Below the pieces are notes generated by a model, which did no database searches, was not told where the DNA came from, and worked only from the letters and a program-made list of their open reading frames with translations. Positions 17,588 to 61,806 of a DNA stretch of 64,000 bases are shown one piece after another. The stretch comes from Colwellia sp. (GTDB lineage Bacteria > Pseudomonadota > Gammaproteobacteria > Enterobacterales > Alteromonadaceae). The position numbers and the translations under genes are program-made. The stretch covers positions 124,001-188,000 of the forward strand of contig JABSOY010000010.1 in NCBI GenBank assembly GCA_013215385.1, written 5' to 3'. Within the stretch, counting starts at the first letter, position 1; each line of letters opens with the position of its first letter.

Positions 17588-19573
17588 TTATTTGTTTTTT
17601 AGCGCATTAGCATGCCAGTACTGCCAGTGCATGTGCTCAGATGTTTCGAGTAAATGTTTTGGCTGTAAATAATCTTTGTACGTATAACGATAAAACTGTC
17701 TTGGTTTGTTTTCTTTATTTTCATTTTCTTGCACATTTTTGATGTTTTCTTTTTCGTGGCTAACTAACCATGCTTTGAATGAATCTGCATGTTTTTCACC
17801 TAGGGTAGTTAATAAGGTTTTATAACCAGAAAAATAATCAGTTTTCAGAAAATTCGCTAACTGACGATATTGTTTTTGATGATTTTCATACATGTAACGT
17901 ACGGCTAAATAGCCCCATTTATACACACGATCGCCACCATCTTTGTATTCGGTATTAAAAACATCAGACAAACTTGGCCAGTCTTTTTGTTCTGTATCGG
18001 CCATTTTTTTGAAGGCTTTCGGATTGACATCGCCTTTAGATATATATTCAGCTAGGCCTTCAGACCACCACACCATATGTGATGGGAAGTGGTTAAAGGT
18101 ATCATATTTGATAAAACGGCCATCAAGGTAATGCACGTATTCGTGATTTAAGTTCCATACTTTAAACTCAGGACGAACCCAAAAATGCTCGTAAGAATAA
18201 AACGTGGCAATATTATCGGGATCTTGCACTGTACCTTCAATATACATACCACCATTATCGGTATTAATGTCAAAAACTAGCTGACCAAACTTGTTATATT
18301 CACTCGCATTTTCAAATACGACAACTCGTAATGAGTCGTTATAGTCATTAGCAACGGGTTGCTTTTTTGTCGCGAGCTTTTCATGAAAGCTAGACTCTTG
18401 AGCAGTTAATTGTTGACATGAATCGCTCAACTGAGCTTCTGTCATCTCTTGGCTTAGAATATATAAACTTGCCGAGCACACATGTTTATTGGGGAGGGTT
18501 TGTTCAATAGTCGGGGTTATACAGCGGTTTGCTAGCGTGCCTTCTTCACATTCAGACTTACCTCGAAACGTACTGACCACGTAAGGAATACTAAACTGTG
18601 TTTTAATTTGTACTCTTGTCAGGCTTTTATCACTAGAAAGTGCTGACCAAACAGTATTGTCTAACTCGCTCATTTTCTGCTGAACAGGCAGTGTTAATAT
18701 GTCGTCATCGAGCTTTTTTTGATCACCTTCACTACGCAGATAATATTCGTTTAAATACTGTTTGTTATAAAGATTATAGTAATTAGCTAATGCCCATGTG
18801 GCATGTTGTTGTGGCCAATTATCGCCCCGTAGTGTGGAATTTTTAGCGGTTAAAAAATTACTTAATGACGTCGCTATAATTTCACCTTTTAACACGGCAT
18901 TGATATGAATGTCTTTATTTTTCCGCCTCGCTTCATAAGGTAAAATTGCTGCTGAACGTAGTATTTCCCATAAAGCATAATCAACGGCTAGCTCGTCAGG
19001 CAGGTCAGTATTGGCATATAAGTCGATAAGTTTACTCAACGGCTTTACATGATCGGCAAGAGAGGCTTGTAATGGCTCTAAATAATACAATCGATATAAG
19101 GCTACCGCATAGTTTTCATGTAATCGAGCCGAGTTAACATTTACTTGATAAAACCCTGGCATGGCCTGTAATGCCAGTAGGGCATTATTTAACGATGAGG
19201 CAGTGTGCTCAGGCCAATCTTTATCCTTGCCGAAGCTAGTATAAATACGTAAATAGTAGCTCAACTTATTTAACGCTTGGTTTGACATATCACCTTGCTG
19301 AGCATAATAAGTAATAGCATTTGCCACATCATGCAATAAATTTTCTTGCATATGGTCAAAGTCGTTACTCCATTGCAGACTAAGCTCAGTATCCAGTAAT
19401 TTAGTTATCGAAAGCTTTTCTATCGCCGCACGAGAGATATTTGCTGACTGCTTAATCATGTTTGTCATGACCACAGGTTTAGTTATATCAGTTAGTTGTG
19501 AACATGCACCGAGTAAAGCGCAACTACTTAGTATTGAAAGCAATACACGGCTTGGTTTGATTTTTTTATTCAT
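17588..19573 (-). CDS. M9 collagenase-like metallopeptidase lipoprotein
   Basis: It has a lipoprotein signal peptide with lipobox LLGAC (Cys near 24). The zinc site is HEYVH in NHEYVHYLDGRF, with the downstream glutamate in WWSEGLAEYIS. This spacing and sequence match the Vibrio-type M9 collagenase catalytic domain. The region before it (about 90-330) resembles the helical M9 N-terminal activator domain. At 661 residues it lacks the PKD/PPC collagen-binding C-terminal domains of secreted collagenases. A cell-attached protease acting on collagen-like or other peptides is plausible; the substrate is unknown. Confidence 0.85.
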   Translation of the reverse strand: MNKKIKPSRVLLSILSSCALLGACSQLTDITKPVVMTNMIKQSANISRAAIEKLSITKLLDTELSLQWSNDFDHMQENLLHDVANAITYYAQQGDMSNQALNKLSYYLRIYTSFGKDKDWPEHTASSLNNALLALQAMPGFYQVNVNSARLHENYAVALYRLYYLEPLQASLADHVKPLSKLIDLYANTDLPDELAVDYALWEILRSAAILPYEARRKNKDIHINAVLKGEIIATSLSNFLTAKNSTLRGDNWPQQHATWALANYYNLYNKQYLNEYYLRSEGDQKKLDDDILTLPVQQKMSELDNTVWSALSSDKSLTRVQIKTQFSIPYVVSTFRGKSECEEGTLANRCITPTIEQTLPNKHVCSASLYILSQEMTEAQLSDSCQQLTAQESSFHEKLATKKQPVANDYNDSLRVVVFENASEYNKFGQLVFDINTDNGGMYIEGTVQDPDNIATFYSYEHFWVRPEFKVWNLNHEYVHYLDGRFIKYDTFNHFPSHMVWWSEGLAEYISKGDVNPKAFKKMADTEQKDWPSLSDVFNTEYKDGGDRVYKWGYLAVRYMYENHQKQYRQLANFLKTDYFSGYKTLLTTLGEKHADSFKAWLVSHEKENIKNVQENENKENKPRQFYRYTYKDYLQPKHLLETSEHMHWQYWHANALKNK

Positions 19574-45691: not shown

Positions 45692-45748
45692 ATGAAAGCT
45701 ATTAAGCGCCTGTCGTTTATATTTACCTTAAAAAGGAAAAGCATATGA
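45692..45748 (+). CDS. 18-residue cationic mini-ORF overlapping cheY start
   Basis: ATG at 45692 behind AAAGGTG encodes MKAIKRLSFIFTLKRKSI and ends in an ATGA-type overlap with the cheY start at 45745. It has its own ribosome site and could couple cheY translation. No homologue recognised. Confidence 0.3.
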   Translation: MKAIKRLSFIFTLKRKSI

Positions 45749-46107
45749 CCAAAGTATTGGTTGTCGACGACTCTAATTCTATTCGCGATATGGTTAGTTT
45801 TACGTTGAAAAGTGCCGGTTATGAAACGGCCGAAGCAAAAGATGGTCAAGATGGCTTAAATAAGGCCAAATCGACCGCTTTTGACCTTGTGATTTCTGAT
45901 GTAAATATGCCCATCATGGACGGGATTGAACTATGTCAAGAATTAAGGAAATTACCCAACTTTAAATTCACTCCAATTTTAATGTTAACGACTGAAAGCT
46001 CAGGCGACATGAAAATGCGTGGTAAGGCGGCTGGTGCAACTGGTTGGTTGGTTAAACCCTTTAACCCTGAAAAATTATTAGCAACCATTAAACGGGTAGT
46101 TAGGTAA
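45745..46107 (+). CDS. cheY: CheY-type response regulator
   Basis: A stand-alone 120-residue receiver: acidic pocket VVDDSNSIRD, phospho-acceptor D52 in LVISDVNMPIMDG, Thr in MLTTESS, Lys in WLVKPF. It directly precedes cheA, as in the F7-type clusters of Pseudomonas (che2) and Vibrio (cluster III). Whether it binds a flagellar motor or another target is unknown. AAAAAGGAAAAG is the ribosome site. Confidence 0.93.
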   Translation: MTKVLVVDDSNSIRDMVSFTLKSAGYETAEAKDGQDGLNKAKSTAFDLVISDVNMPIMDGIELCQELRKLPNFKFTPILMLTTESSGDMKMRGKAAGATGWLVKPFNPEKLLATIKRVVR

Positions 46108-46113
46108 GCAATT

Positions 46114-48252
46114 ATGAGCGTAGATCTTTCGCAATTTATTCCAAGCTTTTTAGAAGAAAGTTTTGAAGGCCTCGAATTAATGGAATCGAGCTTGCTAAAT
46201 TTAGAGCAAGGTGATGATGAAACGATTAATTCAATTTTTAGAGCTGCCCATTCCATAAAAGGAGGCGCAGGAACCTTTGGTTTTAATGGTGTTACTGAAT
46301 TTACTCATTTAGTTGAAACACTACTTGATGAAATGCGCGATGGTCGGCGTAACATCGAACAAAATGATATTGAAATACTGTTAGAGTCCGTTGATTGCAT
46401 GCGTCTGTTGATTGAAGCCATCAGAGATGAAACCGAATGCGACAGCAATAAAATAACTGAAACGTCAATGTTGTTAGAACATACTTTAGCATTAGACAAC
46501 AGTGTTCCCGCCAATGCCAATGAAAATTCCGTAAGTACATCAGCAAGCGATAGCGACGACGCTTTATCAAAGTGGCAAATAACCTTTATTCCAGAGCACC
46601 ATTTAGTACAAACCGGCAATGACCCGCTATTTTTATTTAATGCTTTAGCTGATTTAGGAGAATTAATATTAGACGCTAATTGCAAAGAACTGCCGGCATT
46701 AAACGATATTGATGCCGAAGAGCTTTATATAAGTTGGCAGCTAACATTATCTTCAAAAGCCAGTGAAGCTGAAATTAGAGAAGTGTTTGAGTGGGTTGCA
46801 GATGAATGCCAATTGGTCATCACTAAAGAAGAAACCATCGATGAACTTGCCTCTATAGAGCCAGAAGCAACGGGAGATTCTTCAAAAGAAGCAATTATAA
46901 ATGGTCAAGTTGAAAGTACAGCTGAGCAACACGTTAGTTCAGCAATTTCTGCAGATAAAAATTCGTCACCGCCCCCCTCTGAGAAAACAGCGAACAAGGC
47001 AAAAAATGACTTAGGCTCAATTCGTGTTGGTGTCGATAAAGTAGATAGTTTAATTAATTTAGTGGGCGAGTTAGTCATTACTCAGTCTATGCTTTCAGAG
47101 CTTGGTAATAATTTTGATTTATCGAAAGTAGAAAAGCTCAATGCAGGATTAGAAGAGTTATTACAAAATACTAAAGAACTACAAGAAAGTGTTATGCGCA
47201 TCCGCATGTTACCGATTAGCTTTGCCTTTAATCGCTTTCCAAGACTCGTTCATGATTTATCTAAAAAAACAGGCAAAGAAATTGAGCTGATTTTAAAAGG
47301 TGAGCAAACCGAATTAGATAAAACAGTGATGGAACAAATTGGCGATCCGTTAGTGCACTTAGTACGTAATGCAGTAGACCATGGTATTGAACCAGCGGAA
47401 GTACGAATTGCCGCGGGTAAATCCCCAAAAGGCACGATTACACTAAATGCATTCCACCAAGGTGGCAATATCGTTATCGAAATTAATGATGACGGTGGCG
47501 GTATCAATCGCCAAGCCGTATTTGATAAAGCCTTAGAGAAAGGCATTGTCGATGCAAGTACCACCTTAACTGATACTCAAATTTTTGATTTGCTCTTCGA
47601 ACCGGGCTTTTCAACAGCGAAAGAACTCAGCGATATTTCTGGCCGTGGTGTTGGTATGGATGTCGTCAAAAAGAATATTCAATCCCTTGGTGGCCGTATC
47701 CAGGTTGAGTCTGAAACTGGTGTCGGCAGTACCTTTAGAATAAATCTTCCGCTTACGCTTGCTATTCTAGATGGGCAGTTGGTCAAGGTAGGCAGTGAAA
47801 CATACATAATCCCATTAATCACCATTGTTGAGTCCTTGCAGCCGCAAAAAGATCTCATCAATCGTGTTTCTGGCGACATGGTTCTTTATCGACTTCGTGA
47901 AGATAATGTCCCCGTTATTCCTATTTACAGTTTATTTAATATTGCTAGTGAATTTAAAGATATCGAGAGCTCTCTATTGGTTGTTGTTGAAGCTGATGGG
48001 CAAAAAATAGGGCTAATGGTTGATGATTTATTAGCACAGCAACAAGTGGTGATAAAAAGTCTCAATGACAACTACCAACAAGTGGAAGGTATTTCAGGGG
48101 CAACTATTTTAGGTGATGGCTCTGTCGCTATGATACTTGATGTTTCTGGCATTATTTTAATGGCGCATAAAAAATCAGAACTTGATCAAAAACACAAAAA
48201 AAATATGCACTTTACGCCAACGCAACAAATATCTGAAGGAGCTAACGTTTAA
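46114..48252 (+). CDS. cheA: Chemotaxis histidine kinase CheA
   Basis: At 712 residues, the domains in order are a P1 Hpt with phospho-His46 in FRAAHSIKGGAGTFGF and a CheY-binding P2-like domain at about 150-250 (WQITFIPEHHLVQTGNDPL). A Pro/Ser linker follows, then P3 dimerisation (IRVGVDKVDSLINLVGELVI), the P4 ATPase (HLVRNAVDHGIE, DDGGGIN, GRGVGMDVV) and a P5 CheW-like domain. It is the central kinase of the array formed with the two CheW proteins and the adjacent receptors. Confidence 0.96.
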   Translation: MSVDLSQFIPSFLEESFEGLELMESSLLNLEQGDDETINSIFRAAHSIKGGAGTFGFNGVTEFTHLVETLLDEMRDGRRNIEQNDIEILLESVDCMRLLIEAIRDETECDSNKITETSMLLEHTLALDNSVPANANENSVSTSASDSDDALSKWQITFIPEHHLVQTGNDPLFLFNALADLGELILDANCKELPALNDIDAEELYISWQLTLSSKASEAEIREVFEWVADECQLVITKEETIDELASIEPEATGDSSKEAIINGQVESTAEQHVSSAISADKNSSPPPSEKTANKAKNDLGSIRVGVDKVDSLINLVGELVITQSMLSELGNNFDLSKVEKLNAGLEELLQNTKELQESVMRIRMLPISFAFNRFPRLVHDLSKKTGKEIELILKGEQTELDKTVMEQIGDPLVHLVRNAVDHGIEPAEVRIAAGKSPKGTITLNAFHQGGNIVIEINDDGGGINRQAVFDKALEKGIVDASTTLTDTQIFDLLFEPGFSTAKELSDISGRGVGMDVVKKNIQSLGGRIQVESETGVGSTFRINLPLTLAILDGQLVKVGSETYIIPLITIVESLQPQKDLINRVSGDMVLYRLREDNVPVIPIYSLFNIASEFKDIESSLLVVVEADGQKIGLMVDDLLAQQQVVIKSLNDNYQQVEGISGATILGDGSVAMILDVSGIILMAHKKSELDQKHKKNMHFTPTQQISEGANV

Positions 48253-48776
48253 TGGATATTCAAATGTTAGCAGAAGAGATTCCTGTTGAAGGTGAGCACT
48301 CCCTTGAAGGAATTGATTTTATCACCAGTGGTGAGCAGTATCTTGCCTTTTTATTGGGCGAGGAACAATACGCGATAGATATTCTCTGCGTTGAAGAGAT
48401 CCGCAGTTGGGAAAATCCAACGCAAATTCCTAATTCGCCGAATTATATTAAAGGTGTCATTAATATGCGCGGCATTATTGTCCCGATTGTTGATTTACGC
48501 ATGAAGTTCAATATAGGTAAAGTCACTTATACCGATACAACGGTTGTCATTGTCTTAACTGTCGAAACAACAGATAAAACGCGCACGATAGGTTTTGTCG
48601 TTGATGCCGTATCAGATGTTCTGAATGTTGATAAAAGTGAAATAAAACCTGCGCCAGCATTTGGTGGTTATGTCCCTCAAAATTACCTTGAAGGCTTAGT
48701 TAATGCCGGCGATAACGTAGTGACGATACTCAATGTTAAAGCGTTACAAGCGGTTGAACCGCATAAATTAAGTTAA
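48252..48776 (+). CDS. cheW: CheW adaptor 1
   Basis: The 174-residue single CheW domain begins after a 25-residue leader (YLAFLLGEEQYAIDILCVEEI ... IPNSPNYIKGVINMRGIIVPIVDLR). It couples receptors to CheA. Its start overlaps the cheA stop (TAATG). It is followed by a second, diverged cheW, the duplicate arrangement also seen in Vibrio cluster III. Confidence 0.94.
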   Translation: MDIQMLAEEIPVEGEHSLEGIDFITSGEQYLAFLLGEEQYAIDILCVEEIRSWENPTQIPNSPNYIKGVINMRGIIVPIVDLRMKFNIGKVTYTDTTVVIVLTVETTDKTRTIGFVVDAVSDVLNVDKSEIKPAPAFGGYVPQNYLEGLVNAGDNVVTILNVKALQAVEPHKLS

Positions 48777-48800
48777 ATTGGCAATGTGAAGGAAGATACC

Positions 48801-49337
48801 ATGGAACAAGAACAAGAATATCTCACCTTTATCCTTAATGGCGAAGAATATGGTGTTGATATTTTATGTGTACAAGAGATAAGGGTATGGAGTTCAGTAA
48901 CCGAGTTGCCAAATAAACCTGATTATATCAAAGGGGTTATTAATCTGCGCGGTATTATTATTCCAATTATCGACTTACGTCAGCGGTTTGGAATTGAACC
49001 CCTTGAATATAACGAACAAACCGTCACCATTATTTTACGTAATCAAGATGCCAAAAGGCCAATGGTCGTCGGTCTTATTATTGATGCTGTTTCTGAAGTG
49101 TATAAGTTTAATAAGAAATCAATTCGTAAAGCGCCAGCTTTTGGTAACAAGGTCGATAGTTGCTTTTTAAAAGGTTTAGCGTCTATAGATGAAAAACTTA
49201 TTATCCTTTTAGACACCACGACTTTATTAGATCAAGACGAAATGTACCGTACCGATAATAAACCCAGTTCAACGAAACAAATTTCCAGTGATAGCCAGGA
49301 AGAACGTCCTTTCGCTGATGCAGAACAAAGTAGCTAA
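48801..49337 (+). CDS. CheW adaptor 2
   Basis: A second CheW domain: [41 protein letters not shown] and [13 protein letters not shown]. It has a 30-residue Ser/Gln-rich C-terminal tail absent from CheW 1. The ATG at 48801 ([10 protein letters not shown]) with AAGGAAG upstream is preferred over the GTG at 48786. The two CheW proteins differ enough to favour different receptors or ring positions. Confidence 0.93.
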
Positions 49338-49363: not shown

Positions 49364-52300
49364 ATGACCCCCAAACAAATAAGTTTAGTGCAAGAAAGCT
49401 GGGCAAAAGTTAAACCTATTGCTCCTCAAGCGGCAGAAATTTTTTATAATACTTTGTTCGAAATGGACCCTTCGCTAAAACCTCTATTTAAAAACGATAT
49501 GACCGAGCAAGGTACTAAATTAATGACCATGCTTGATACCGCGGTGAAGTTGCTCAATAGCCCGGATAAATTAATTCCAGCAGTAGAAAAGTTAGGGGTA
49601 AGACATGTCGACTACGGCGTTACTGCGGCTCATTACGATACCGTTGGCGCCGCGTTACTAAAAACACTCGAAGTCGGTTTAGGTGATGCCTTTACCCCAA
49701 CCGTTAAAAAAGCATGGACGGCGGTTTATACCGTTTTAGCAACCACGATGATAGCAGCAGCTGATGCAAGCATCGCTGAAAAAAAACAATCAACAGGAAC
49801 TACTATGAGCAACAGTAATAACGAACAAAATGCATTTATTCAATCAGCTTTAGATCAGTCTGGCACTGCTGTTATGATGATTGATAGAGACTTTATTATT
49901 ACCTATGCCAATGAGAGCACCATGAAGTTGCTTAAAATCCACGAAGCAACATTTCAGAAAAAATGGCCGAGTTTTGTCGCCAATAAAGACGATATTATCG
50001 GTTTTTGCATCGATGGTTTTCATACCAATCCTGCCCATCAACGTGAGTTGCTCGCAGACCCTAAGAACTTACCTTACAGCACAGATATTGAAATCGAACA
50101 TTTGACCATGGAATTAAATGTTACCGCGATTATGAGTGCTGATAATAAATATATTGGTAATTCACTTGAATGGAGCGACGTTACTGACATAAGAGCTAGC
50201 AGTGACAAGGCAGTACAATTGCAAGGTGCCATTGACCAATCTAATACCCCCAATATGATGATTGACCGTGATTTTTTAATAACCTATGCCAATAAAGCAA
50301 CCTTTGATTTATTAAAAGAACATGAAGCGGTCTTTGCAGCAAGTTTTCCAGGCTTTAAAGCCGATGAAGAGGCGATTATTGGCGCTTGTATTGATGGTTT
50401 TCATAAAGACCCGGCCCATCAACGCAAACTGTTAGACGATCCAAATAATTTACCTTGGCAAACCGACATTCAAGTGCAGCATTTAACCTTTGAATTAAAT
50501 GTTACCGCGATTATGAATACTGCTGGCGAATATATAGGTAATTCACTTGAGTGGAATAATGTCACGCAAGTCAGGGTTGATGCAGACAAAGCCATACAAT
50601 TACAAGGTGCCATTGACCAATCTAATACGCCAACGATGATGATTGACCGCGACTTTTTGATCACTTACGCCAATAAAGCGACCTTTGCTTTATTAAAAGA
50701 AAATGAAGCGGTCTTTGCAGCAAGTTTTCCCGGCTTTAAAGCCGATGAAGACGCGATTATTGGCGCTTGTATTGATGGCTTTCATAAAAAACCGGCCCAT
50801 CAACGAAAACTGTTAGACGATCCAAACAATTTACCGTGGCAAACCGACATTCAAGTGCAGCATTTAACCTTTGAATTAAATGTTACCGCGATTATGAATT
50901 CAGCGGGTGAGTATATAGGTAATTCACTTGAGTGGAGTAATGTCACGCAAGTTAGAGTTGATGCTGACAAAGCCATACAATTGCAAGGTGCCATTGACCA
51001 ATCTAATACGCCAAACATGATGATTGACCGTGATTTCATCATTACCTACGCCAATAAAGCAACCTTTACGCTATTAAAAGACAATGAAGAGACTTTTGCT
51101 AAATCTTTCCCCGGATTTAAAGCCGATGAAGACGCGATTATTGGTGCTTGTATTGATGGCTTTCATAAAAATCCGGCCCATCAACGAAAACTGTTAGACG
51201 ATCCAAACAATTTACCGTGGCAAACCGACATTCAAGTGCAGCATTTAACCTTTGAATTAAATGTCACCGCGATTATGGACTCAGCGGGTGAGTATATTGG
51301 TAACTCACTTGAGTGGAGTGATGTCACGCAAGTCAGAAGTTCTGCTGATAAGGCCATACAATTGCAAGGGGCCATTGATCAATCTAATACCCCAACGATG
51401 ATGATTGACCGCGATTTCATCATTACCTACGCCAATAAAGCAACCTTTACGCTATTAAAAGACAATGAAGAAACGTTTGCTAAATCTTTCCCCGGATTTA
51501 AAGCCGATGAAGACGCGATTATTGGCGCTTGTATTGATGGTTTTCATAAAAATCCGGCCCATCAACGAAAACTTCTTGACGATCCAAATAATTTACCGTG
51601 GCAAACCGACATTCAAGTGCAGCATTTAACCTTTGAATTAAATGTCACCGCGATTATGGATGCTGCAGGCAATTATATTGGTAACTCGCTTGAGTGGGGT
51701 GATGTCACGCAAGTAAGAGCTGCCGCTAACAAGTCAGTGCAATTACAAGGCGCCATCGACCAATCTAATACGGCTACTATGATGATTGACCGTGACTTCT
51801 TGATCACCTATGGCAATAAAGCGACCTTTACTTTATTAAAAGAGAATGAAGAGGTTTTCGCCAAAGCATTTCCTGGTTTTAAAGCCGATGAAGGCTCGAT
51901 TATCGGCGCTTGTATCGATGGTTTTCATAAAAATCCGGCCCATCAACGAAAATTATTAGACGATCCAAACAACTTACCATGGCAAACCGATATTAAAGTG
52001 ATGCATTTAACCTTTGAATTAAATGTTACCGCGATTATGGATGCGGCAGGCGATTACATTGGTAATTCACTTGAGTGGCAAAATGTTACTGCCGCACGAG
52101 AAAAGTCTATTGAAGTCGGGCGATTAACCTCGACCCTGGAAGGCATGACCACGAATGTGATGATGGCCGATACTACCGGTCTAATTGTTTACGCTAACCC
52201 TTCCGTCTGTACAATGTTGAGACGCCGCGAAGCTAAAATTCAAACGGTTTTACCGTCATTTAGTGTCGCGACTATGGTCGGAACTAATTTTGATTCTTTC

Positions 52301-53680
52301 CATGCTAACCCTGCGCATCAACAAAACTTATTAGGTAACCCTGATAACTTGCCATACGACACCGAAATTAATGTTGCTGGGCTAACCTTTCAATTAATCG
52401 CCATCGCTTTAAGAGATGAAGAAGGAAACCATGTTGGCACCGCAGTGCAATGGCTCGATTTAACTGAAGAAAAAGATGCACAAGCGCAAGTTGAAAGTAT
52501 GATCAGTGATGCCATTTCAGGTCAGTTAGATACCCGCATTGAAACCGCAGATTATACCGGCTTTATGAAAGGGCTTGGTGACAATATCAACAATTTAATG
52601 AACGCAATTGTCGAGCCTATTAATGAAGCGATTAATGTTGCACAAGCGCTGTCCGATGGCGACTTGTCACAAACGATGGACGGTGAATATGCCGGAGAGT
52701 TTTTAGCGCTGGCGAATGCTATGAATGGCTCTATTGAAAACTTAAGTAATATGGTTACTGAAATACGCTCAGCTTCAACCAATGTTTTTGATTCAGCAAG
52801 AGAAATTGCTGAAGGTAATAATGAACTAAGCCATAGAACTGAGTCGCAAGCATCAAGCTTAGAAGAAACGGCTTCGGCAATGGAAGAGCTGACCAGCACG
52901 GTACAACAAAATGCAGAAAATGCTTCCGAAGCAAGTCGTTTATCAACTTCGGTGATGACCAAAGCCAGCAATGGTGGCGAGGTGGTGAAAAGTGCAATAA
53001 CCGCGATGAGTGATATTAATAAGTCGAGTAAAAAAATTGCCGACATTATTAGTGTTATTGACGAAATTGCCTTCCAAACCAACTTATTGGCACTAAATGC
53101 TGCAGTAGAAGCGGCCAGAGCAGGTGAACAAGGCCGAGGTTTTGCAGTAGTTGCCGCCGAAGTTCGTAACTTAGCGCAACGTTCAGCAGGAGCGGCAAAA
53201 GAAATTAAAGGCTTAATTAACGACAGTGTTGAAGCCGTAGGGCAAGGAACAAAACTGGTTGATGAAACCGGACAAACCTTTACTGAATTAGTAACCGCCA
53301 TCGAAGAAGTTGGCAAAATGATTAGCGATATAGACAGTGCGGGTAAAGAGCAGTCAGCGGGTATCGGTGAAGTGAGTGCCGCGGTTAGTCAAATGGATGA
53401 AATGACTCAACAAAATGCAGCATTAGTGGAAGAGGCCGCCGCGTCAAGTAAATCAATGGAAGAGCAGTCTCAACTACTACTTGACCAAGTTGCTTTCTTT
53501 AATGATGGTGAAGAAGAAGTCCCAGAAATTAAAACCCCAGTACGTCGTTCAAGACCTGGTGTTAAAAAGCCAACTCGACCTGCTGCCAGAGCTACCTCTA
53601 GACCTGCTGCCAGAACAGCGCCTAAATCAAAAAGTAGGAGAACAAAAACAGAAACTGACCAAGAATGGGAAGAGTTTTAG
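49364..53680 (+). CDS. Globin-PAS(x7)-HAMP-MCP soluble chemoreceptor
   Basis: A 1438-residue receptor with no transmembrane segment. Residues 1-140 are a bacterial single-domain globin with Phe42 (CD1), Gln49 (E7) and proximal His81 (GVRHVDYG). Residues 158-919 are six PAS units of exactly 127 residues. A seventh, diverged PAS is at 920-1045. HAMP-like segments (about 1050-1140) precede the MCP signalling hairpin ([21 protein letters not shown]). The C-terminus is Arg/Pro-rich and ends EWEEF, a CheR-docking pentapeptide like that of Aer2. Each PAS has FHxNPAHQ (FHxxPAHQ in units 2 and 3) and a C-terminal EW/QW Trp, as in Aer2 haem-PAS domains. Gas sensing through several haems is the inferred role. 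AATGGAGC precedes the ATG. Confidence 0.93.
49835..52120 (+). repeat. Six tandem 381-bp repeats encoding PAS units
   Basis: The units start at 49835, 50216, 50597, 50978, 51359 and 51740, each exactly 381 bp with no indels. Units 2-6 are highly similar; units 4 and 5 share a long identical stretch from the MIDRDF codons to the ADEDAIIG codons. Unit 1 is clearly older. This fits repeated duplication and gene conversion in frame. Confidence 0.95.
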
Positions 53681-53692
53681 GACGAGTTAGCC

Positions 53693-54538
53693 ATGACGCA
53701 ACGAGATAAAGCGTATCAGTTAAGTAATCACGATTTTAGCTTTCTCTGTCAGTTTGTTTACGACATTGCTGGTATTGTTCTTAATACCAGCAAACGTGAA
53801 ATGGTTTATCGGCGGCTGACCCGCATTATTCGCGAGCGTAAATTAGCTTCATTCACTGAGTACTGTGACTTATTGAGGAAGGAACCAGAAAAAGAGAAAG
53901 ATTACTTTATCAATGCGATTACCACGAACTTAACCAGTTTCTTTCGTGAGCAACATCATTTTGACTATATGACTCAACATGAATTGCCAAAGTTAATTCG
54001 TAACAGTTTGTCGCATCACAAACGTTTAAGAATTTGGTCGTCTGCAAGCTCAACAGGAGAAGAACCCTACAGTATAGCTATTACCGTATTTGAGGCGATG
54101 AAAGACCAATTAAGTCAATGGAATTTGAAAATATTAGCGACAGATATAGACAGTAATGTTTTAGATACCGGTAGAAAAGGAATTTATGATGAACGTCGTA
54201 TTGAAGATGTGCCGAGAAAGTTTAAAGAAAAATACTTTCATAAAGGCGTGGGTAAAAATTCGAGTAAGGTGAAAGTAGACAAACAATTACAGCAGCTTAT
54301 TACTTTTAAATCGCTAAATTTATTACATGATTGGCCAATAAAAGGGCCATTTGACATTATCTTTTGTCGTAACGTTATTATTTATTTTGATAAAAAAACG
54401 CAACAAGAACTTTTTGCTCGTTTTTATGAAATGTTAACACCAGGTGGACTCTTAATTCTGGGGCATAGTGAAAATTTAGGAGAATACCAAGCACATTTTG
54501 AAAATGTTGGTCGCACGATCTTTAGAAAAGCATTTTAG
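53693..54538 (+). CDS. cheR: Chemoreceptor methyltransferase CheR
   Basis: The N-terminal helical domain (FSFLCQFVYDIAGIVLNTSKREMVYRRL, in part) contacts receptor glutamates. The SAM-binding domain has IWSSASSTGEEPYSIA, ILATDIDSNVLDTG and IFCRNVIIYFD. The length of 281 residues is normal. A beta-subdomain that binds xWxxF pentapeptides is expected at the insertion around 215-235. It lies 12 bp after the receptor gene, whose EWEEF tail is its probable docking site. Confidence 0.95.
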   Translation: MTQRDKAYQLSNHDFSFLCQFVYDIAGIVLNTSKREMVYRRLTRIIRERKLASFTEYCDLLRKEPEKEKDYFINAITTNLTSFFREQHHFDYMTQHELPKLIRNSLSHHKRLRIWSSASSTGEEPYSIAITVFEAMKDQLSQWNLKILATDIDSNVLDTGRKGIYDERRIEDVPRKFKEKYFHKGVGKNSSKVKVDKQLQQLITFKSLNLLHDWPIKGPFDIIFCRNVIIYFDKKTQQELFARFYEMLTPGGLLILGHSENLGEYQAHFENVGRTIFRKAF

Positions 54539-54600: not shown

Positions 54601-55266
54601 ATGGTAATAAATAGGAAAAACAATACTCATGTTGAGCTATGTTTAAAGCACTGTTTACCCATTTTCTCACATGTGAATCATTATTGGGATCAAAAGCGTG
54701 AGCAAGTTATTGCGAAAATATTACCTGGTGAGTTTTACATGACTCGCGAAAATGTGGCGATAGCAACAACCTTAGGTTCATGTGTTTCGGCGTGCATTTG
54801 GGATGAACATGTAGGTATTGGTGGTATGAATCATTTTATGTTGCCACTCACGGACAAAGAGGCCCATGAAGTTGATTGGGGCCAACGGGGTATGGCATCA
54901 GATGCAACTCGTTATGGAAACTTTGCCATGGAGCATTTAATTAACATGATTTTAAAATGTGGTGGCCGAAAAATAAATTTGCGAGCAAAGGTCTTTGGCG
55001 GCGGCAAGGTATTAAAACAAATGTCTGATGTCGGTGATAAGAACATTAAATTTGTCCTGCAATATCTTGAAGACGAAGCTATACCGGTTGAAAGTTCTGA
55101 TCTAGGCTCTTTTTATCCGCGAAAAGTTCTATTTGAACCCTATAGCGGTCGAGCCTATGTTAAAACCATTGATAACCTGCATAACGATACCATTGTTCGT
55201 CGAGAAAGTGATTATCGTACTCGGATTGATCAAGCTCCTGTAGAAGGTGACGTAGAGCTATTTTAA
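54601..55266 (+). CDS. cheD: Chemoreceptor glutamine deamidase CheD
   Basis: The catalytic Cys is in TTLGSCVSACIWD and the His in GIGGMNHFMLP; FGGGKVL and VESSDLGSFYPRKVLFEPYSGRA also match CheD (quoted in parts). There is an N-terminal extension of about 40 residues. The C-terminus ends PVEGDVELF, resembling the tails of two other proteins in this operon. It deamidates receptor glutamines to adjust adaptation. Confidence 0.93.
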   Translation: MVINRKNNTHVELCLKHCLPIFSHVNHYWDQKREQVIAKILPGEFYMTRENVAIATTLGSCVSACIWDEHVGIGGMNHFMLPLTDKEAHEVDWGQRGMASDATRYGNFAMEHLINMILKCGGRKINLRAKVFGGGKVLKQMSDVGDKNIKFVLQYLEDEAIPVESSDLGSFYPRKVLFEPYSGRAYVKTIDNLHNDTIVRRESDYRTRIDQAPVEGDVELF

Positions 55267-55285: not shown

Positions 55286-56383
55286 ATGTTAAAAATAATG
55301 AAACCAATCAAAGTATTAATTGTTGATGACTCTTCGGTTATTCGTGCAGTAATTAATGAAGTATTGAAAGGTGACCCTGAAATTGAGGTTGTTGGTGAAG
55401 CTAAAGATCCTATTGTTGCCCGTGATAAAATTAAAAACCTGAATCCAGACGTACTGACCTTAGATATTGAAATGCCAAAAATGGATGGTATTACCTTCTT
55501 GAAAAATTTAATGCGTTTGCGGCCAATGCCAGTGGTCATGTTGTCAACATTAACCACAAAAGGCGCTGATACCACACTCGAGGCACTTGAAGTTGGCGCG
55601 ATAGACTTTATTGCCAAACCAAGTTTTGAAGAGTTAATCGCCAATAAGGCAAACTTTAAAAAGTCGTTGCTCCGAAAAATAAAATTTGCTGCCAGCATAG
55701 ATCAAAAAAATTATAAATTAAATTCTGTTATTACCAAGGTTGATAATACTAAAATATTAGCTTTTCCTGGCTGCAAACGGTCAAACCACTTGATTGCTAT
55801 TGGCGCTTCAACGGGGGGAACAGAAGCGATTAAAACGATTATCACCCAATTACCCAGTAATTCTCCTCCGGTGGTTATTACTCTTCATATTCCTCAAACC
55901 TTTAGTGCACGGTTTGCTGAGCGAATTAATGATTATTGCGCAGTAAATGTACAAGAAGCAAAACACGGTCAAAAAATTAAAGCCGGTAATGTTTATATTG
56001 CTCCCGGTAATATGCACCTTAAAATTGAGAGTAAAAGTGGTGCATTATTTTGCACTTTAGATGACTCAGCAGAAGTGAACCGTCATAAACCATCGGTTGA
56101 TATGCTATTTAACTCACTAGAGCCATTAGCCAGTAATGTACAGGCAGTATTACTAACCGGTATGGGACAAGATGGTGCTGAAGGTCTACTCAACTTAAAA
56201 GAAAATGGCGCAATGACTATTATTCAAGATAAAGCCAGTAGCTTAGTCTGGGGCATGCCTGGTCGCGCGCATGCCTTAAATGCACATATCAGAGAATATG
56301 CTTTAGTTGATATAGCTAAACATCTTTTAAAGTTCTCTCTACTTGAACGTAGTGCTATGAAGGAGGCACTTAATGCAAAATAA
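55286..56383 (+). CDS. cheB: Protein-glutamate methylesterase CheB
   Basis: The N-terminal receiver ([12 protein letters not shown] in [14 protein letters not shown] in FIAKPSF) is linked to a methylesterase. Its triad is visible: Ser in [11 protein letters not shown], His in [16 protein letters not shown] and Asp in [12 protein letters not shown]. The length of 365 residues is normal. The start may be 55286 or the in-frame ATG at 55298 (MKPIKVLIV). It overlaps the next gene by 11 bp. Confidence 0.95.
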
Positions 56384-57560
56384 ACTAAGCTTAATATTAT
56401 CGGCTGGTGGTGTCGTCGCCATTGCCATCGTGCTAGATTTACTTTTTATGCAGTTAAGTTACTTTTCGTTAATTTGCGCCTTGTTATTAGTGATGATCTT
56501 TGCTTTTTTATTTAAAGAAAATAATGAGTTACAGCTTGTTGAAACTGCGATCGAAGCCATTGAAAGTAAAAAATCAACCGACAAAAATGTTGAGAAAACG
56601 TTAGCCAACATTGCAAGTTTACTTAATCAACAAATGAACATTATTGATAGCGAGGTTGATAGGGCAAGTGCCATCATTCGTGATGCGGTTACGGGCATTG
56701 CTGATAGTTTCAAATATTTAAATAACCTCAGTGAAGACCAGCAACAAATGCTCAATACCGTTATTAATTATCAGAAGGGCATTAGTGACGATAAAAGCAT
56801 GACGATAGAGTCATTTGTTCATGACTCTAGTGAAACGTTAGAAGATTTTGTGCAAGTGATTATCTCAACGAGTAAGCAAAGTTTAGAGGCGATGGCATTC
56901 ACTAATGAAATGAGTGAACAGTTAGAAGGTATTTTTAGCTTACTTGGACAAGTAGAAGGTTTAGCAAGTCAAACAAATCTATTAGCGCTTAATGCCGCCA
57001 TAGAAGCTGCGCGGGCTGGAGATGCTGGCCGAGGTTTTGCTGTAGTAGCGAATGAAGTGCGCGCTTTATCTGTAAATTCCACCGAACTTAATAATGATAT
57101 ACGACAAGAAATTTCCAAAGCACAAATTATTATCGAACGTTTGCAAAACTCCGTGGAAACAATGGCGTCAGCAGATATGACATCGACACTTGAAGCTAAA
57201 AATAGAGTCAGTGAAATGGTTGAACATGTCGGTGATGTAAATTATAAAACGAAAATAGTGGTTGAAGAATTAACGCTTATATCTCCTCAAATTAAAGAAA
57301 CTGTAGAGGTGGGGATTCGCTCATTGCAGTTTGAGGATCTTGCTCATCAAACACTTACTTCATTAAAAAGTAATACAGCAACCATAAATTTACTCTATCA
57401 GGAAATGATACAGTTTGATGTTCAACAAGGCGATAGTGTCGAACAGCTAAATATATTACAGCAAAAATGCCAACAACTTATTCAAAAAACCGGCGATGTA
57501 AATGATAAGCGCAGTGTTTCACAAAGCTCGATGGAAGAGGGTGAAGTAGAGTTATTTTAA
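56373..57560 (+). CDS. Short membrane MCP-like protein without sensor domain
   Basis: Two adjacent transmembrane segments (about 7-28 and 30-47) leave almost no periplasmic part. A helical region and the MCP hairpin core follow ([38 protein letters not shown], in part). No HAMP or PAS domain was found. It ends EEGEVELF instead of an xWxxF tether. Similar small MCPs follow cheB in Vibrio cluster III. It may act as a membrane-attached array component or decoy; function unknown. Confidence 0.85.
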
Positions 57561-57591: not shown

Positions 57592-57900
57592 ATGAGTGTA
57601 AAAAAACAAGTCTCAGAGAATAGTAAAAATATAGAAATTAGTATAGATGGCCGTTTCGATTTTTCGTTACATCAGCATTTTCGAGATGCATATGCTAATT
57701 GTAAAGAGCATGGACAGATTTTTACCTTAAACTTAGCCGCGACCAGTTACATGGACAGTTCAGCATTGGGGATGATTTTATTACTTAAAGATCATGCTGA
57801 AAGCCATTCAGGTAAAGTGGTCATTGCTCGGCCTAGTGAGTCAGTTAATAAAATTTTAGAAATTGCCCAATTTCACCGTTTGTTAACCATAGAGCAATAG
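57592..57900 (+). CDS. STAS anti-anti-sigma-type protein
   Basis: The 102-residue STAS domain has the conserved switch segment TSYMDSSALGMILLLKDHAE, keeping the Asp-Ser-Ser of SpoIIAA/RsbV. It is therefore phosphorylatable, unlike the first STAS protein of the operon. It lies 3 bp before a REC-PP2C-HATPase gene, the pairing seen in the Pseudomonas HsbA/HsbR and Vibrio SypA/SypE partner switches. Confidence 0.9.
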   Translation: MSVKKQVSENSKNIEISIDGRFDFSLHQHFRDAYANCKEHGQIFTLNLAATSYMDSSALGMILLLKDHAESHSGKVVIARPSESVNKILEIAQFHRLLTIEQ

Positions 57901-57903
57901 TTT

Positions 57904-59637
57904 ATGACGACTTTTTCTGAAAAACGCCATATTAAATTAGCCTTGGTTGTTGATGATTCTTTAATGCAATGTAAAGTCTTAAGCGTTTTATTAAAAGAAG
58001 AAGGATACCGAGTTTTTACCGCTAATGATGGTGCTCGGGGTGTTGCTATGTATATTAAATACAAGCCGGATCTCGTTTTAATGGACATTAATATGCCCAT
58101 TATGAATGGTTATGAAGCAGCAAGAAAAATTAAGGGGTTATCTCAAGATAATAGCTTATGTCCCTTAATTTTTATTACCAGTATGGATACTGATCAAGCC
58201 TTTATCGAAAGTATCGACGCCGGGGGCGACGGTATTTTAGTTCGTCCCTTTTCTCCTAATGTTTTTAAAGCAAAAATTAAATCTATTCAACGTATTAGCG
58301 ATTTGTACGGGCAAGTTAAAACGCTTCAACAAGCCCAACAAAAAGATGCTGAACTTGCCGAACAGCTAATGTCTGGTGTGATAGAAGCAAGAAATTTTTC
58401 TCGCGACAGAATTGGTATTATCAGACAAGCAGCTGAATTATTTAGTGGCGATATACAACTCACAGCGTTAGCACCTAATGGCGATGTAAATGTAATGTTG
58501 GGCGACTTTACCGGTCATGGTTTACGGTCATCTATTGGAGCCATTCCACTGGCGGAAACTTTTCGCGCGATGACAAAAAAAGGTTTTTCACTGTTTGAAA
58601 TTATTACGCAAGTAAATCATCAGTTATATGATTTACTGCCAGCAGATTTATTTTTAGCGGCAGGCTTTGTCAGTATTTCAACACACAATGCGTCTATGTA
58701 TGCTTTTAATGCTGGGTTACCTGATGGTTATCTCTTTTCTGAGTTAGGCGAGATAAAGTATCAATTATCATCAACACATCCCCCCCTAGGTGTACTTCCT
58801 AACTTATTGCCTGATAGCCAATTAACTGTGGTAAGTATTGCCGAAACAGACAGAATGATTCTGATTAGCGACGGTATAGTAGAAGCTAGAAACGAAGCAG
58901 GTGAAATGTTTGAGTTTGAGCGCTTTGAACACGCGGCAAAACAGGGGGTTCTCGAAGGAAATGTAAGTAAACACGTGCAGCAGACAGTAAATAATTTTTG
59001 TCAAGACATGCCACAAGAAGATGATATATCTCTCATTGATATTCCTTGCGGTGGCTGGCAGCAATTATTAGTTGGGAGTCATGACTTTGAACACTTTCCT
59101 GATAAGCTCTTAAGCGATACCTCAATTAAAACCCTGCCTGCCTGGCATTGGCAACTTTCTTTAAGAGGTAAGCGCTTAGGCATAATAAACCCAATACCTA
59201 TGGCAATGAGCCAAATTAATGAGATAGAAGGTCATGCTGATCATTGGCAAAGCTTGTATACCATATTAACCGAGCTTTTTATTAATTCACTTGATCATGG
59301 TGTTTTAGGCTTGAGCTCAGAACTAAAAGCCAGTGCTGACGGATTTTCAGAATACTTTAAAGAGCGAGAGCACCGCTTACGTAACCTTGAAGAGGGGTTT
59401 GTCGAACTACAGTTAAGTCACCATCCGGTGCCAAATGGTGGCAGAGTTATTATTAAAGTTAAAGATAGCGGGAAAGGTTTTGATATTACTAAATATTATA
59501 AAGATAGAGATGTAGATTCAGCAGCAAAATTGAAATTTAGTGGCCGCGGTATTGATTTAGTCGAGCAGCTTTGTGACAGCTTAGACTACCAAGAAAATGG
59601 CACAGTAGTAGAAGCGTCTTATGTCTGGACATCTTAA
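57904..59637 (+). CDS. Receiver-PP2C phosphatase-HATPase partner-switch regulator
   Basis: At 577 residues, residues about 10-130 are a receiver (VVDDSLMQCKVL, D in LVLMDINMPIMNG, RPF at the Lys position, where Arg replaces the conserved Lys in LVRPF). Residues about 190-385 are a SpoIIE/RsbU PP2C phosphatase (GDFTGHGLRSSIGAIPLAE, RMILISDGIVEARN). Residues about 430-577 are an RsbW-like HATPase (LTELFINSLDHGVLG, VKDSGKGFDI, GRGIDLV). It probably phosphorylates and dephosphorylates the adjacent STAS protein under phosphorelay control. The Lys-to-Arg change in the receiver is unusual. Confidence 0.92.
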   Translation: MTTFSEKRHIKLALVVDDSLMQCKVLSVLLKEEGYRVFTANDGARGVAMYIKYKPDLVLMDINMPIMNGYEAARKIKGLSQDNSLCPLIFITSMDTDQAFIESIDAGGDGILVRPFSPNVFKAKIKSIQRISDLYGQVKTLQQAQQKDAELAEQLMSGVIEARNFSRDRIGIIRQAAELFSGDIQLTALAPNGDVNVMLGDFTGHGLRSSIGAIPLAETFRAMTKKGFSLFEIITQVNHQLYDLLPADLFLAAGFVSISTHNASMYAFNAGLPDGYLFSELGEIKYQLSSTHPPLGVLPNLLPDSQLTVVSIAETDRMILISDGIVEARNEAGEMFEFERFEHAAKQGVLEGNVSKHVQQTVNNFCQDMPQEDDISLIDIPCGGWQQLLVGSHDFEHFPDKLLSDTSIKTLPAWHWQLSLRGKRLGIINPIPMAMSQINEIEGHADHWQSLYTILTELFINSLDHGVLGLSSELKASADGFSEYFKEREHRLRNLEEGFVELQLSHHPVPNGGRVIIKVKDSGKGFDITKYYKDRDVDSAAKLKFSGRGIDLVEQLCDSLDYQENGTVVEASYVWTS

Positions 59638-59676: not shown

Positions 59677-60603
59677 GTGAATATTTTAGTTGTCGATGAT
59701 AATAAATTTATCAGACAAGTTGTTAGCGCGATGATCGTTGATAGTGGGCACGTTGCTATTCCAGTTGATGGTCATTTACCCGCATTAGCTGAATTGAGTA
59801 AAGGCACACTTGATTTAGTGTTAATGGATATTGAAATGCCAGAAGTGAATGGTTTTGAGTTAACAAAAATGATGAGAAAATCACAGCCAGAATGGTTTCC
59901 TATTATTTTTCTTAGTTCAAACGATAGTGAAGACTACTTAACTAGAGGCATTGATGCTGGCGGCGACGATTACTTAACTAAGCCGGTAAAACAAGTGATC
60001 TTAAGTGCAAAAATAAGAGCAATGGAACGTATTGTTCAAATGAAAGGGGCACTTGATAGAGCCAATAAGCAACTAGAAATACTGAGTAGTATCGATCCTC
60101 TGACCCAAGTACTTAATCGTCGAGGTTTAGAAGATGTCTTAGCAAATGCTTGGCAAGAAAATACCCGTCAAGAAGCTGAATTATCATTACTGATGTTAGA
60201 TATTGATTTTTTTAAATTATATAACGATAACTATGGTCACCCTCAAGGTGATAAGTGTTTAACACAAGTCGCCAGTGTTTTGAATAAAACACTTAATAGA
60301 GCAACAGAGTCATTGGCTCGTTACGGTGGTGAAGAGTTTATCATTGTTATGCCATTTACACCCATTGATGGTGCAAGGTTTAAAGCCAAAGAGCTAAATT
60401 TAGCCTTGCAAACTATTAAAATAAAGCACGAATATTCATCTGTTTTACCTTATGTAACCATGAGTATTGGTATCGCAACAACCACTCATGGCGCAAGTAA
60501 TATCAGTGAATTAATCAAGCAAGCTGATATTGCCTTGTACCAAGCTAAAAAGAAAGGACGTAATTGCTCGCAAGTATTTCAAAATAAGCAAGCCGAGCAA
60601 TAG
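59677..60603 (+). CDS. Receiver-GGDEF diguanylate cyclase
   Basis: The 308-residue protein has a receiver (VVDDNKFIRQ, D in LVLMDIEMPEVNG, K in LTKPVKQ) joined by a short helix to a GGDEF domain. The active-site loop is ARYGGEEFIIV (GGEEF, catalytically competent). The inhibitory RxxD site five residues upstream reads RATE, so product inhibition is probably lost. It makes c-di-GMP when phosphorylated. Start: GTG at 59677 behind AAAAAGGTG. Its place after the STAS/PP2C pair parallels the Pseudomonas HsbD arrangement. Confidence 0.93.
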   Translation: MNILVVDDNKFIRQVVSAMIVDSGHVAIPVDGHLPALAELSKGTLDLVLMDIEMPEVNGFELTKMMRKSQPEWFPIIFLSSNDSEDYLTRGIDAGGDDYLTKPVKQVILSAKIRAMERIVQMKGALDRANKQLEILSSIDPLTQVLNRRGLEDVLANAWQENTRQEAELSLLMLDIDFFKLYNDNYGHPQGDKCLTQVASVLNKTLNRATESLARYGGEEFIIVMPFTPIDGARFKAKELNLALQTIKIKHEYSSVLPYVTMSIGIATTTHGASNISELIKQADIALYQAKKKGRNCSQVFQNKQAEQ

Positions 60604-60645: not shown

Positions 60646-61806
60646 ATGTCTACACCGAGTTTATTAATTATTGATGACGATAAAGATTACTTAGAATTAC
60701 TGAATGAAGCACTAGAAGGAAGTTTTGAGGTCAAGTGTGCGAGTAATTTGGATGAAGCGGAAAAAATTGTCAGCGATAACGAAATTTTTGATATTGCTTT
60801 GGTTGATGAAAATATTGGTGTAGACAAAGGCTCTGAATGGATAAAAGGTAAAGTTCAGCAACATGCGGTTGCTACCTCCTTTGTGCTTTATTCTGGCTTA
60901 GCGAATGAAGATGCAATACTCAAGGGATTAGAATGTGGCGCCGATGACTTTCTTGCCAAACCTTTCTCGCTATTAGCGCTCAATAATAAATTAAAAAAAC
61001 TGATTGCTTATCAAAATAAGATTCATACCTTTGAGTCAGAAATTTGTTCAAAAGACAGGGTTATCAACGTTTCTATGGCCCAAGCCTCGAAGTATGGTAG
61101 CTGTATGCAACTTACTTCTCGCCTTAATAATTGTTTTACCTTAGAAAAAATTCGTGATGAAGTCTTTTCCTTTCTTTACACCATGAACTTGCAAGGTTGT
61201 ATTGCTTTTTATCCTCTTAATGAAAAACCGATATTTTATAGTTCTAAAAATGGCTTTTGTTCACCGGTCGAAATTGATGTAATGAAGTTATTAAAAATAA
61301 AACCTAGGCTTTATCGCTTTAGTTCTAGAACCATTTTTAACCATTCATTATGCTCAATACTCATTTTGAACCTTGAAGAAGGGGCTATTGATACGGACAT
61401 CTATATTGATGCATTAGCTTCAGTTATCGAATGTATTGGCGCTCGTATTGCGTTTATTACTTATAAAAACTCTTTGGTTAAGGTACAAAATAAAATTGAA
61501 CAAGCAGTTAAAACGACTAAAAAAATGATTGAAATTTCTAAGCATCACCAGCAAGAAGTGATGAATGAAATAGTGCAAAAGATAGGTGTGAGCTTTCATG
61601 TTTTAGATTTAAATGAAGAGCAAGAAGACTATTTAACAAGTTTGGTTCATAACGCCCTTAAAAAACATACTCAAGACGATATAAATTTTTTAGAAGTAAC
61701 CCAATTACTTGACGGCGCCTTAAGCAGTGTTAGTGAATTAGAAGTACTTAATCAGCAGCAAGATGAAGAAATTGAAGACTTTGATGATGAGGATGAATTA
61801 TTTTGA
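60646..61806 (+). CDS. Receiver protein with novel C-terminal domain and acidic ELF tail
   Basis: The receiver is residues 1-125 (LIIDDDKDYLELL, D in DIALVDENIG, K in FLAKPFSLL). A coil and an unrecognised domain of about 150 residues follow (170-320: LEKIRDEVFSFLYTMNLQGCIAFYPL ... LCSILILNLEEG, in part), possibly GAF-like. A helix and the acidic tail DFDDEDELF end the protein. There is no known output domain. The tail resembles those of CheD and the short MCP in this operon. It overlaps the next gene by 4 bp. Confidence 0.8.
   Translation: MSTPSLLIIDDDKDYLELLNEALEGSFEVKCASNLDEAEKIVSDNEIFDIALVDENIGVDKGSEWIKGKVQQHAVATSFVLYSGLANEDAILKGLECGADDFLAKPFSLLALNNKLKKLIAYQNKIHTFESEICSKDRVINVSMAQASKYGSCMQLTSRLNNCFTLEKIRDEVFSFLYTMNLQGCIAFYPLNEKPIFYSSKNGFCSPVEIDVMKLLKIKPRLYRFSSRTIFNHSLCSILILNLEEGAIDTDIYIDALASVIECIGARIAFITYKNSLVKVQNKIEQAVKTTKKMIEISKHHQQEVMNEIVQKIGVSFHVLDLNEEQEDYLTSLVHNALKKHTQDDINFLEVTQLLDGALSSVSELEVLNQQQDEEIEDFDDEDELF

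Follow-up and report, generated by a model that had tools for sequence, protein, structure and literature searches.

A predicted Aer2-type chemoreceptor with an N-terminal haemoglobin and seven haem-PAS domains in Colwellia

The Aer2 chemoreceptors of Pseudomonas aeruginosa (Aer2/McpB), Vibrio cholerae, Vibrio vulnificus and Shewanella oneidensis combine PAS domains carrying a haem His and Trp with HAMP, the hairpin of methyl-accepting chemotaxis proteins (MCP) and a C-terminal W-x-x-F tether. In the available text of a 2026 review (PMC13401364), the PAS haem binds O2, these receptors carry one to three PAS domains, and in the three-PAS receptor of V. vulnificus PAS3 transmits the signal downstream and PAS2 regulates PAS3. 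HemAT and other globin-coupled sensors are built on an N-terminal haem globin joined to an MCP. Here, we analysed a 64,000-nucleotide stretch of Colwellia sp. (assembly GCA_013215385.1, contig JABSOY010000010.1, positions 124,001 to 188,000), hereafter the window, in which one gene encodes a 1,438-residue chemoreceptor. This receptor shares the Aer2 features named above as well as the operon genes, and unlike the described Aer2 receptors it has a haemoglobin at its N-terminus and seven PAS domains.

A haemoglobin at the tip of an Aer2-type receptor

In agreement with the original prediction, made from the letters of the window, a globin, seven PAS domains, a HAMP, the MCP hairpin and a terminal EWEEF lie in a single protein, as confirmed by Pfam (PF00042 for the globin) and by the sequence. 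The PAS domains repeat at an exact period of 127 residues. One HAMP was matched by Pfam, and a conserved stretch is present where a second would lie; a further HAMP may stand between PAS7 and the matched one. In the MCP part, 305 residues align to 305 positions of the NCBI model PRK15041, a comparison of length alone; we take this model to represent the Tsr receptor of E. coli, one of the 36-heptad class. The protein is presumably cytoplasmic, and its EWEEF tail fits the motif x-[HFYW]-x2-[HFYW] given for C-terminal tethers in the available text of PMC7184735.

One of the PAS units matched the PAS structures of the V. cholerae and P. aeruginosa Aer2 receptors (6ceq, E = 1.6e-22; also 3vol and 4hi4), and each of the seven units has both the haem His and the Trp. 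It should be noted that E-values measure similarity to models, not function. Of 356 Aer2-type PAS domains in 124 receptors (species present in two collections counted twice, PAS domains gathered with a model made from the window's own units), 352 have the His and 354 the Trp. Seven is the highest number of PAS among these receptors, although contig ends truncate some of them; draft genomes may collapse PAS repeats, and the copy numbers in relatives are minima. The spacing of the PAS domains is mostly 125–127 residues in the compared receptors that have a globin and mostly 130–131 in those without. PAS2 to PAS5 share 84–92% DNA identity, and in each of the six pairwise comparisons synonymous codon differences outnumber non-synonymous ones; judged from these differences, they are tandem copies (50228–51718) kept under selection. 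The protein also reached 1,726 bits with the NCBIfam Aer2 equivalog model NF041847, against a cut-off of 1,200, although tandem repeats may inflate this score; the best stretch aligns residues 666–1438 to positions 39–804 of the 804 in the model.

The globin matches PF00042 in a Pfam profile search. Its closest solved relatives by sequence (3s1i, 3ubc and 3wfw, E = 1.9e-26 to 4.8e-26) are Hell's Gate globin I and the Roadblock/LC7-fused globin, both of which we take to come from Methylacidiphilum, and the closest fold of the predicted structure is likewise Hell's Gate globin, in a fold-search list taken up by globins that hardly probes the PAS part. Alignments show the same pocket residues in both; unlike Hell's Gate globin I, which stands alone, and the Roadblock-fused globin, the window globin sits on a chemoreceptor. 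As had been predicted for His81, Phe42 and Gln49, the haem residues are intact in the alignments; together with Tyr28 they presumably occupy positions F8 (His81), CD1 (Phe42), E7 (Gln49) and B10 (Tyr28). The F8 His is kept in 30 of 33 globin domains of relatives and in 40/40 receptors sampled across the class, and the B10 Tyr, CD1 Phe and E7 Gln are found in all 39 class-wide receptors that cover those columns.

The assignment to the single-domain side of the globins, rather than to the HemAT protoglobins, also stood. A globin of the HemAT kind was rejected for the window protein, which has no PF11563 match at E-values up to 0.1. Among relatives, L022, L069 and L130 have PF11563 matches below the cut-off, and L021, with four tandem globins that all keep the F8 His, scores 66 bits with PF11563 (cut-off 25) and 241 bits with PF00042. 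The receptor differs further from the globin-coupled sensors by the PAS array and HAMP placed between globin and MCP and by a linker predicted to be flexible (predicted local distance difference test score below 50 at residues 145–151). Given that this linker is predicted to be disordered and that 11 to 28 residues separate globin and PAS, depending on the receptor, a rigid helix is unlikely to connect the two. Flavohaemoglobins and Vitreoscilla haemoglobin belong to the same broad globin lineage. An origin from flavohaemoglobins was unsupported: the 26 flavohaemoglobin rows group apart from the others, in a separate clade (100/100), in the globin trees, which were built on 146 columns and whose bootstrap had not settled. 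No Pfam match to an FAD/NAD reductase domain was found in the window protein.

Given the Aer2-type PAS units, the match to the Aer2 model and the che operon around the gene, the protein is, as far as its sequence tells, a member of the Aer2 (F7) receptors to which a haemoglobin close to Hell's Gate globin has been added. The original prediction had called this architecture a new class of gas receptor, apart from Aer2. The fusion of a globin to a PAS array is real; the separate class does not hold, since the PAS units are themselves Aer2-type haem-PAS and the NF041847 cut-off is passed, which makes the protein a variant of Aer2.

Distribution and relatives

A search of named genomes gave 587 similar loci, of which the best 80 were kept. 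A globin stands in front in 24 of these 80, among them Colwellia, Thalassotalea, Glaciecola, Methylophaga, Chromatiales and unclassified gammaproteobacterial assemblies; none was found in the other 56, many of them from Pseudoalteromonas, Shewanella and Oceanospirillaceae, with a few cut by a contig end. PF00042 was matched in 116 of 369 gammaproteobacterial genomes, the window's own counted. Around the listed open reading frames of at least 580 amino acids (aa), 40 regions from 38 genomes were examined, large frames in G149 and G262 being left out. A frame combining a globin with Aer2-type PAS is present in each of the 40, the MCP part lies within the stretch in 39, and the W-x-x-F tail is present in 34. 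At least 39 of the 369 genomes thus have a globin-PAS-MCP receptor gene, the window's included, as is that of G124, whose globin is broken by two stops; the architecture is therefore neither unique nor rare. In 398 genomes drawn across the phylum, the frames of at least 580 aa among the matches listed were those of the window, of G744, G676 and G728 (the window's family) and of G454, a 656-aa frame from another class, for which the globin match was the part of the domain make-up looked at.

In a tree of 108 receptors, made with a quick method from a sample in which globin-bearing rows are over-represented and were partly found through the globin, a branch of 63 rows (Shimodaira-Hasegawa-like approximate likelihood-ratio test 97) contains 60 with a globin, against 0 of 45 on the other side. 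Two of its globin-less rows reflect an assembly gap (L097, with a globin in the neighbouring reading frame) and a start at a contig end (L063); in the third, L020, the absence looks real. Two separate gains of the globin, by a group A, which includes the window, and a group B, were considered and rejected: they are drawn by the globin tree without long rows (12 of 128 rows left out, including three non-haem ones), but a single clade is not rejected there (approximately unbiased test, p = 0.38), and the receptor tree unites both groups. No description of the architecture, nor of globin-CheW or globin-CheA fusions, was found among the papers listed by searches of an open-access library that omits most subscription papers. 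Haemoglobin-bearing receptors are a widespread and apparently undescribed branch of the Aer2 family.

Three Colwellia-type receptors in the same operon slot (L074, L093 and L094) have lost the haem ligands of their globin: the F8 column reads Gln, Ser and Ser, and the E7 Gln is lost as well. Aer2-type PAS domains are absent from them, and their PAS domains are of the PAS_3 type. They share one stem branch of 2.34 in the globin tree; in the window's group, the terminal branches of the 13 haem-bearing rows measure 0 to 0.67. To judge from the tree, the joint loss of globin haem ligands and haem-PAS is one evolutionary event and counts once; a single task shared by the two haem parts would predict such a loss. 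In the same genus, genome G002 has both the haem and the non-haem kinds, in two che operons.

Similar globins also occur in other proteins of these operons. In two genomes of one genus (G106 and G323), a haem-type globin is inserted inside the domain of a CheW, 59% identical between them, which adjoins a globin-Aer2 receptor. A CheA (L130) carries its globin between Ala/Pro-rich linkers, and the receptor of the same operon is also globin-bearing; this example comes from one draft genome, G038, 86% complete with 6% contamination. Two globin-STAS proteins (genomes G142 and G351) presumably resemble RsbR-type sensors, but with a PF00042 globin, and their globins cluster with the receptor globins of their own operons (97/94). 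All five fusions keep the four pocket residues, and they are rare, being found in five genomes.

A conserved start site behind the globin

An in-frame ATG lies within a 26-residue stretch behind the globin in 60 of 61 receptors (the three non-haem receptors left out), compared with 49% of random stretches. We measured the anti-Shine-Dalgarno pairing upstream of this ATG in the 58 receptors that have it among the 59 left after removal of near-copies: the mean is −7.6 kcal/mol, against −3.2 kcal/mol at matched other ATGs. Synonymous recoding gave −5.4 kcal/mol, and the observed value was reached by none of 300 recoded sets, while pairing at other internal ATGs falls slightly short of that after recoding, which indicates slight avoidance. 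Moreover, the post-globin site (−7.6, n = 63) pairs more strongly than the best candidate starts upstream of the globin (−6.0, n = 58); in the three non-haem relatives it stands at −5.9 kcal/mol.

The two groups differ. In the 49 receptors of group B, the mean is −8.16 against −5.55 after recoding, with none of 1000 recoded sets as strong, and this holds with the 45 receptors left after stricter removal of near-copies. In the nine receptors of group A, no codon-level signal was found (−4.44 against −4.42; 468 of 1000 sets as strong), and an internal start in the window's own group is unsupported by this test. The window's site, AGGA and a 6-nt gap before the ATG of Met148, is moderate (−4.3 kcal/mol, with 5% of recodings as strong).

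For group B, a second, globin-less receptor product appears likely. The alternative, to which we give an appreciable but lesser weight, is that the ATG is a mere scar of the fusion and that no second product is made: a start codon at just this position would be left over when two genes fused, the site in group A is no better than its recoded versions, and a single receptor among the 49 of group B is significant at the 5% level when each is tested alone. Such a scar would not account for the strength of the site across group B as a set, for the avoidance at other internal ATGs, or for L042:5935-8631, where two stops break the globin but leave the downstream receptor frame intact, with a strong site, although a sequencing error is possible there. 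We also considered whether the short product has the length of a classic Aer2; this was unsupported, the leaders before PAS1 having a median of 71 aa in globin-less receptors against 21 aa, medians that depend on a crude choice of start.

Operon, output and role of the globin

The operon runs cheY-cheA-cheW-cheW-receptor-cheR-cheD-cheB-small MCP-STAS-receiver/PP2C/ATPase-receiver/GGDEF-receiver (Table 1), and its content from cheY to cheB is that of an F7-type che operon. The VELF-like ends of CheD, the small MCP and the last receiver (DELF) recur in those relatives within the genus that have the gene; a shared docking tail is possible. Elsewhere in the window lies a collagenase-type Peptidase_M9 gene (17591-19573, minus strand).

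Table 1. Coordinates of the receptor, its operon and related proteins (window positions unless a locus is named)
Feature	Position	Strand	Remarks
Globin-Aer2 chemoreceptor gene	49364..53680	+	1,438 aa
Globin domain	49364..49783	+	residues 1-140; Tyr28, Phe42, Gln49, His81 (codon 49604-49606)
Possible internal start after globin	49795-49798 (AGGA), 49805-49807 (ATG)	+	6-nt gap; in-frame ATG of Met148
PAS1	49847..50194	+	Aer2-type haem-PAS, His and Trp present
PAS2	50228..50575	+	Aer2-type
PAS3	50609..50956	+	Aer2-type
PAS4	50990..51337	+	Aer2-type
PAS5	51371..51718	+	Aer2-type
PAS6	51752..52099	+	Aer2-type
PAS7	52133..52474	+	Aer2-type, unit adjoining HAMP
HAMP	52580..52744	+	PF18947/PF00672
MCP signalling domain	52943..53407	+	
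EWEEF C-terminal pentapeptide	53663..53677	+	CheR tether type; motif definition PMC7184735
CheY	45745..46107	+	
CheA	46114..48252	+	dimerisation domain PF02895
CheW 1	48252..48776	+	
CheW 2	48786..49337	+	
CheR	53693..54538	+	
CheD	54601..55266	+	C-terminus VELF
CheB	55286..56383	+	named by sequence reading and gene position
Small MCP	56373..57560	+	McpA-like by VELF end
STAS protein	57592..57900	+	CrsA-like
Receiver + SpoIIE/PP2C phosphatase + HATPase	57904..59637	+	CrsR-like
Receiver + GGDEF diguanylate cyclase	59677..60603	+	
Receiver protein	60646..61806	+	C-terminus DELF
Colwellia-type receptor	L074:5953-8658		haem-dead globin, PAS_3-type PAS, same operon slot
Colwellia-type receptor	L093:6714-9782		as above
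Colwellia-type receptor	L094:6771-9512		as above
CheW with globin	L154:6582-7523	-	haem-type globin inside CheW domain
CheW with globin	L157:4935-5876	+	haem-type globin inside CheW domain
CheA with globin	L130:4368-6881	+	globin between part behind Hpt and dimerisation domain
Globin-STAS protein	L164:6586-7530	-	directly before receptor
Globin-STAS protein	L165:4918-5868	+	directly before receptor
Receptor with four tandem globins	L021:1-4599	+	four PAS

The locus as a whole is best explained, and we hold this to be somewhat probable, as an Aer2 (F7-system) gas receptor with a haemoglobin at its tip and an output to RpoS and cyclic diguanylate (c-di-GMP). Each chain would bind up to eight haems, one in the tip haemoglobin and seven in the PAS array. 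O2, and perhaps NO or CO too, would bind the PAS haems; by analogy with PAS3 of V. vulnificus (PMC13401364), PAS7, which adjoins the HAMP part, would relay the signal to CheA, with the upstream PAS domains tuning it. The globin on its flexible linker may be a second gas-binding module of another affinity, widening the range, or may supply or scavenge gas beside the PAS haems; both of these, the second affinity tier and the tethered gas handler, accord better with such a linker than a signalling link through a rigid helix would. Haem binding, the ligands, the role of the globin, the direction of the signal and the output are all predicted from the comparisons above.

As for the output, the STAS and receiver-PP2C-ATPase genes recall the Shewanella CrsR-CrsA pair beside Che1, a likeness of domain content and gene neighbourhood, not of alignment to the Shewanella proteins, and RpoS binding is predicted here. 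S. oneidensis Che1 provides the precedent of an Aer2 with CrsR/CrsA in the available text of PMC9855816 and PMC6482189. CheA output is predicted to go mainly to the CrsR/CrsA-like pair, which would free or hold RpoS, and to the receiver-GGDEF protein, in preference to the flagellum. This prediction draws on that precedent, on the adjacent CrsA/CrsR-like genes, on the presence of RpoS in the genome and on another CheA, the dimerisation domain of which is separated by ~2 kb from a sigma factor of 241 aa that resembles FliA in size and place. Besides the CheA of this operon, the genome has two CheA-type matches. The STAS and receiver-PP2C pair also occurs in L014–L019, L074, L093, L094 and L097 (the region of L097 being cut).

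Several observations weigh against this account of the receptor and its output. The seven tandem PAS domains may be partly redundant copies, given the 84–92% DNA identity of units 2 to 5. The link to RpoS rests on gene neighbourhood, and across the class a STAS match was found in 6 and a receiver-PP2C match in 2 of the 40 regions, which are short stretches and often cut. Closer to the window, L095 has a STAS match without a receiver-PP2C match, L013 has neither, and neither was detected in the six Shewanella stretches examined. Finally, the CheY of the operon leaves room for a flagellar output.

In one alternative, the globin takes no part in signal input and instead handles gas while tethered at the array, either buffering O2 or acting as an NO dioxygenase, and so sets or protects the gas that reaches the PAS haems; we regard this role as unlikely. 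Its Tyr B10/Gln E7 pocket, the partial match of the window protein to the NCBI NO-inducible flavohaemoprotein model (below its cut-off) and the flexible linker of variable length would suit that role, as would the similar globins in CheW, CheA and STAS proteins, which are common to array or operon and not to one signalling joint. However, no reductase domain is fused to the globin, a check confined to the protein itself, and the receptor tip is also a normal place for a sensor; the joint loss of globin haem and haem-PAS is compatible with both roles alike. It is more doubtful still that the system drives flagellar aerotaxis through CheY and not an RpoS/c-di-GMP arm. CheY, CheB, CheR and CheD are all present, and the Aer2 receptors of P. 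aeruginosa and other species change E. coli tumbling in heterologous assays, according to the available text of PMC13401364; against this stand the other CheA near the FliA-like sigma factor, and the partner-switch pair and receiver-GGDEF gene of the operon, the pair being present in most of the closest relatives examined. We consider it very improbable that the globin is vestigial, or that its fold holds no haem and serves dimerisation alone: a non-haem version exists in the three Colwellia-type receptors, but the four pocket residues are kept throughout the class-wide receptors and the end branches of the haem-bearing rows are short beside the non-haem stem.

If the reading of a tip haemoglobin on an Aer2 receptor is right, one chain with up to eight haem sites would unite two kinds of haem gas sensing that stand under separate headings in the available text of the 2026 review (PMC13401364). 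Judging by the CheW, CheA and STAS fusions, the site of action of a haemoglobin may be the core array itself or its immediate surroundings. More tentatively, and with rather less than even confidence, haemoglobin may be a standing part of F7 arrays, at the receptor tips of a whole Aer2 branch and, in some operons, in CheW, CheA or STAS proteins, with long and short receptor products, the latter from the conserved internal start, setting its level in the array. Natural controls exist in receptors with one to seven PAS domains, with one or four globins, with none, or with a haem-dead globin, and the purpose of multiple haem domains may therefore be tested by natural part swaps.

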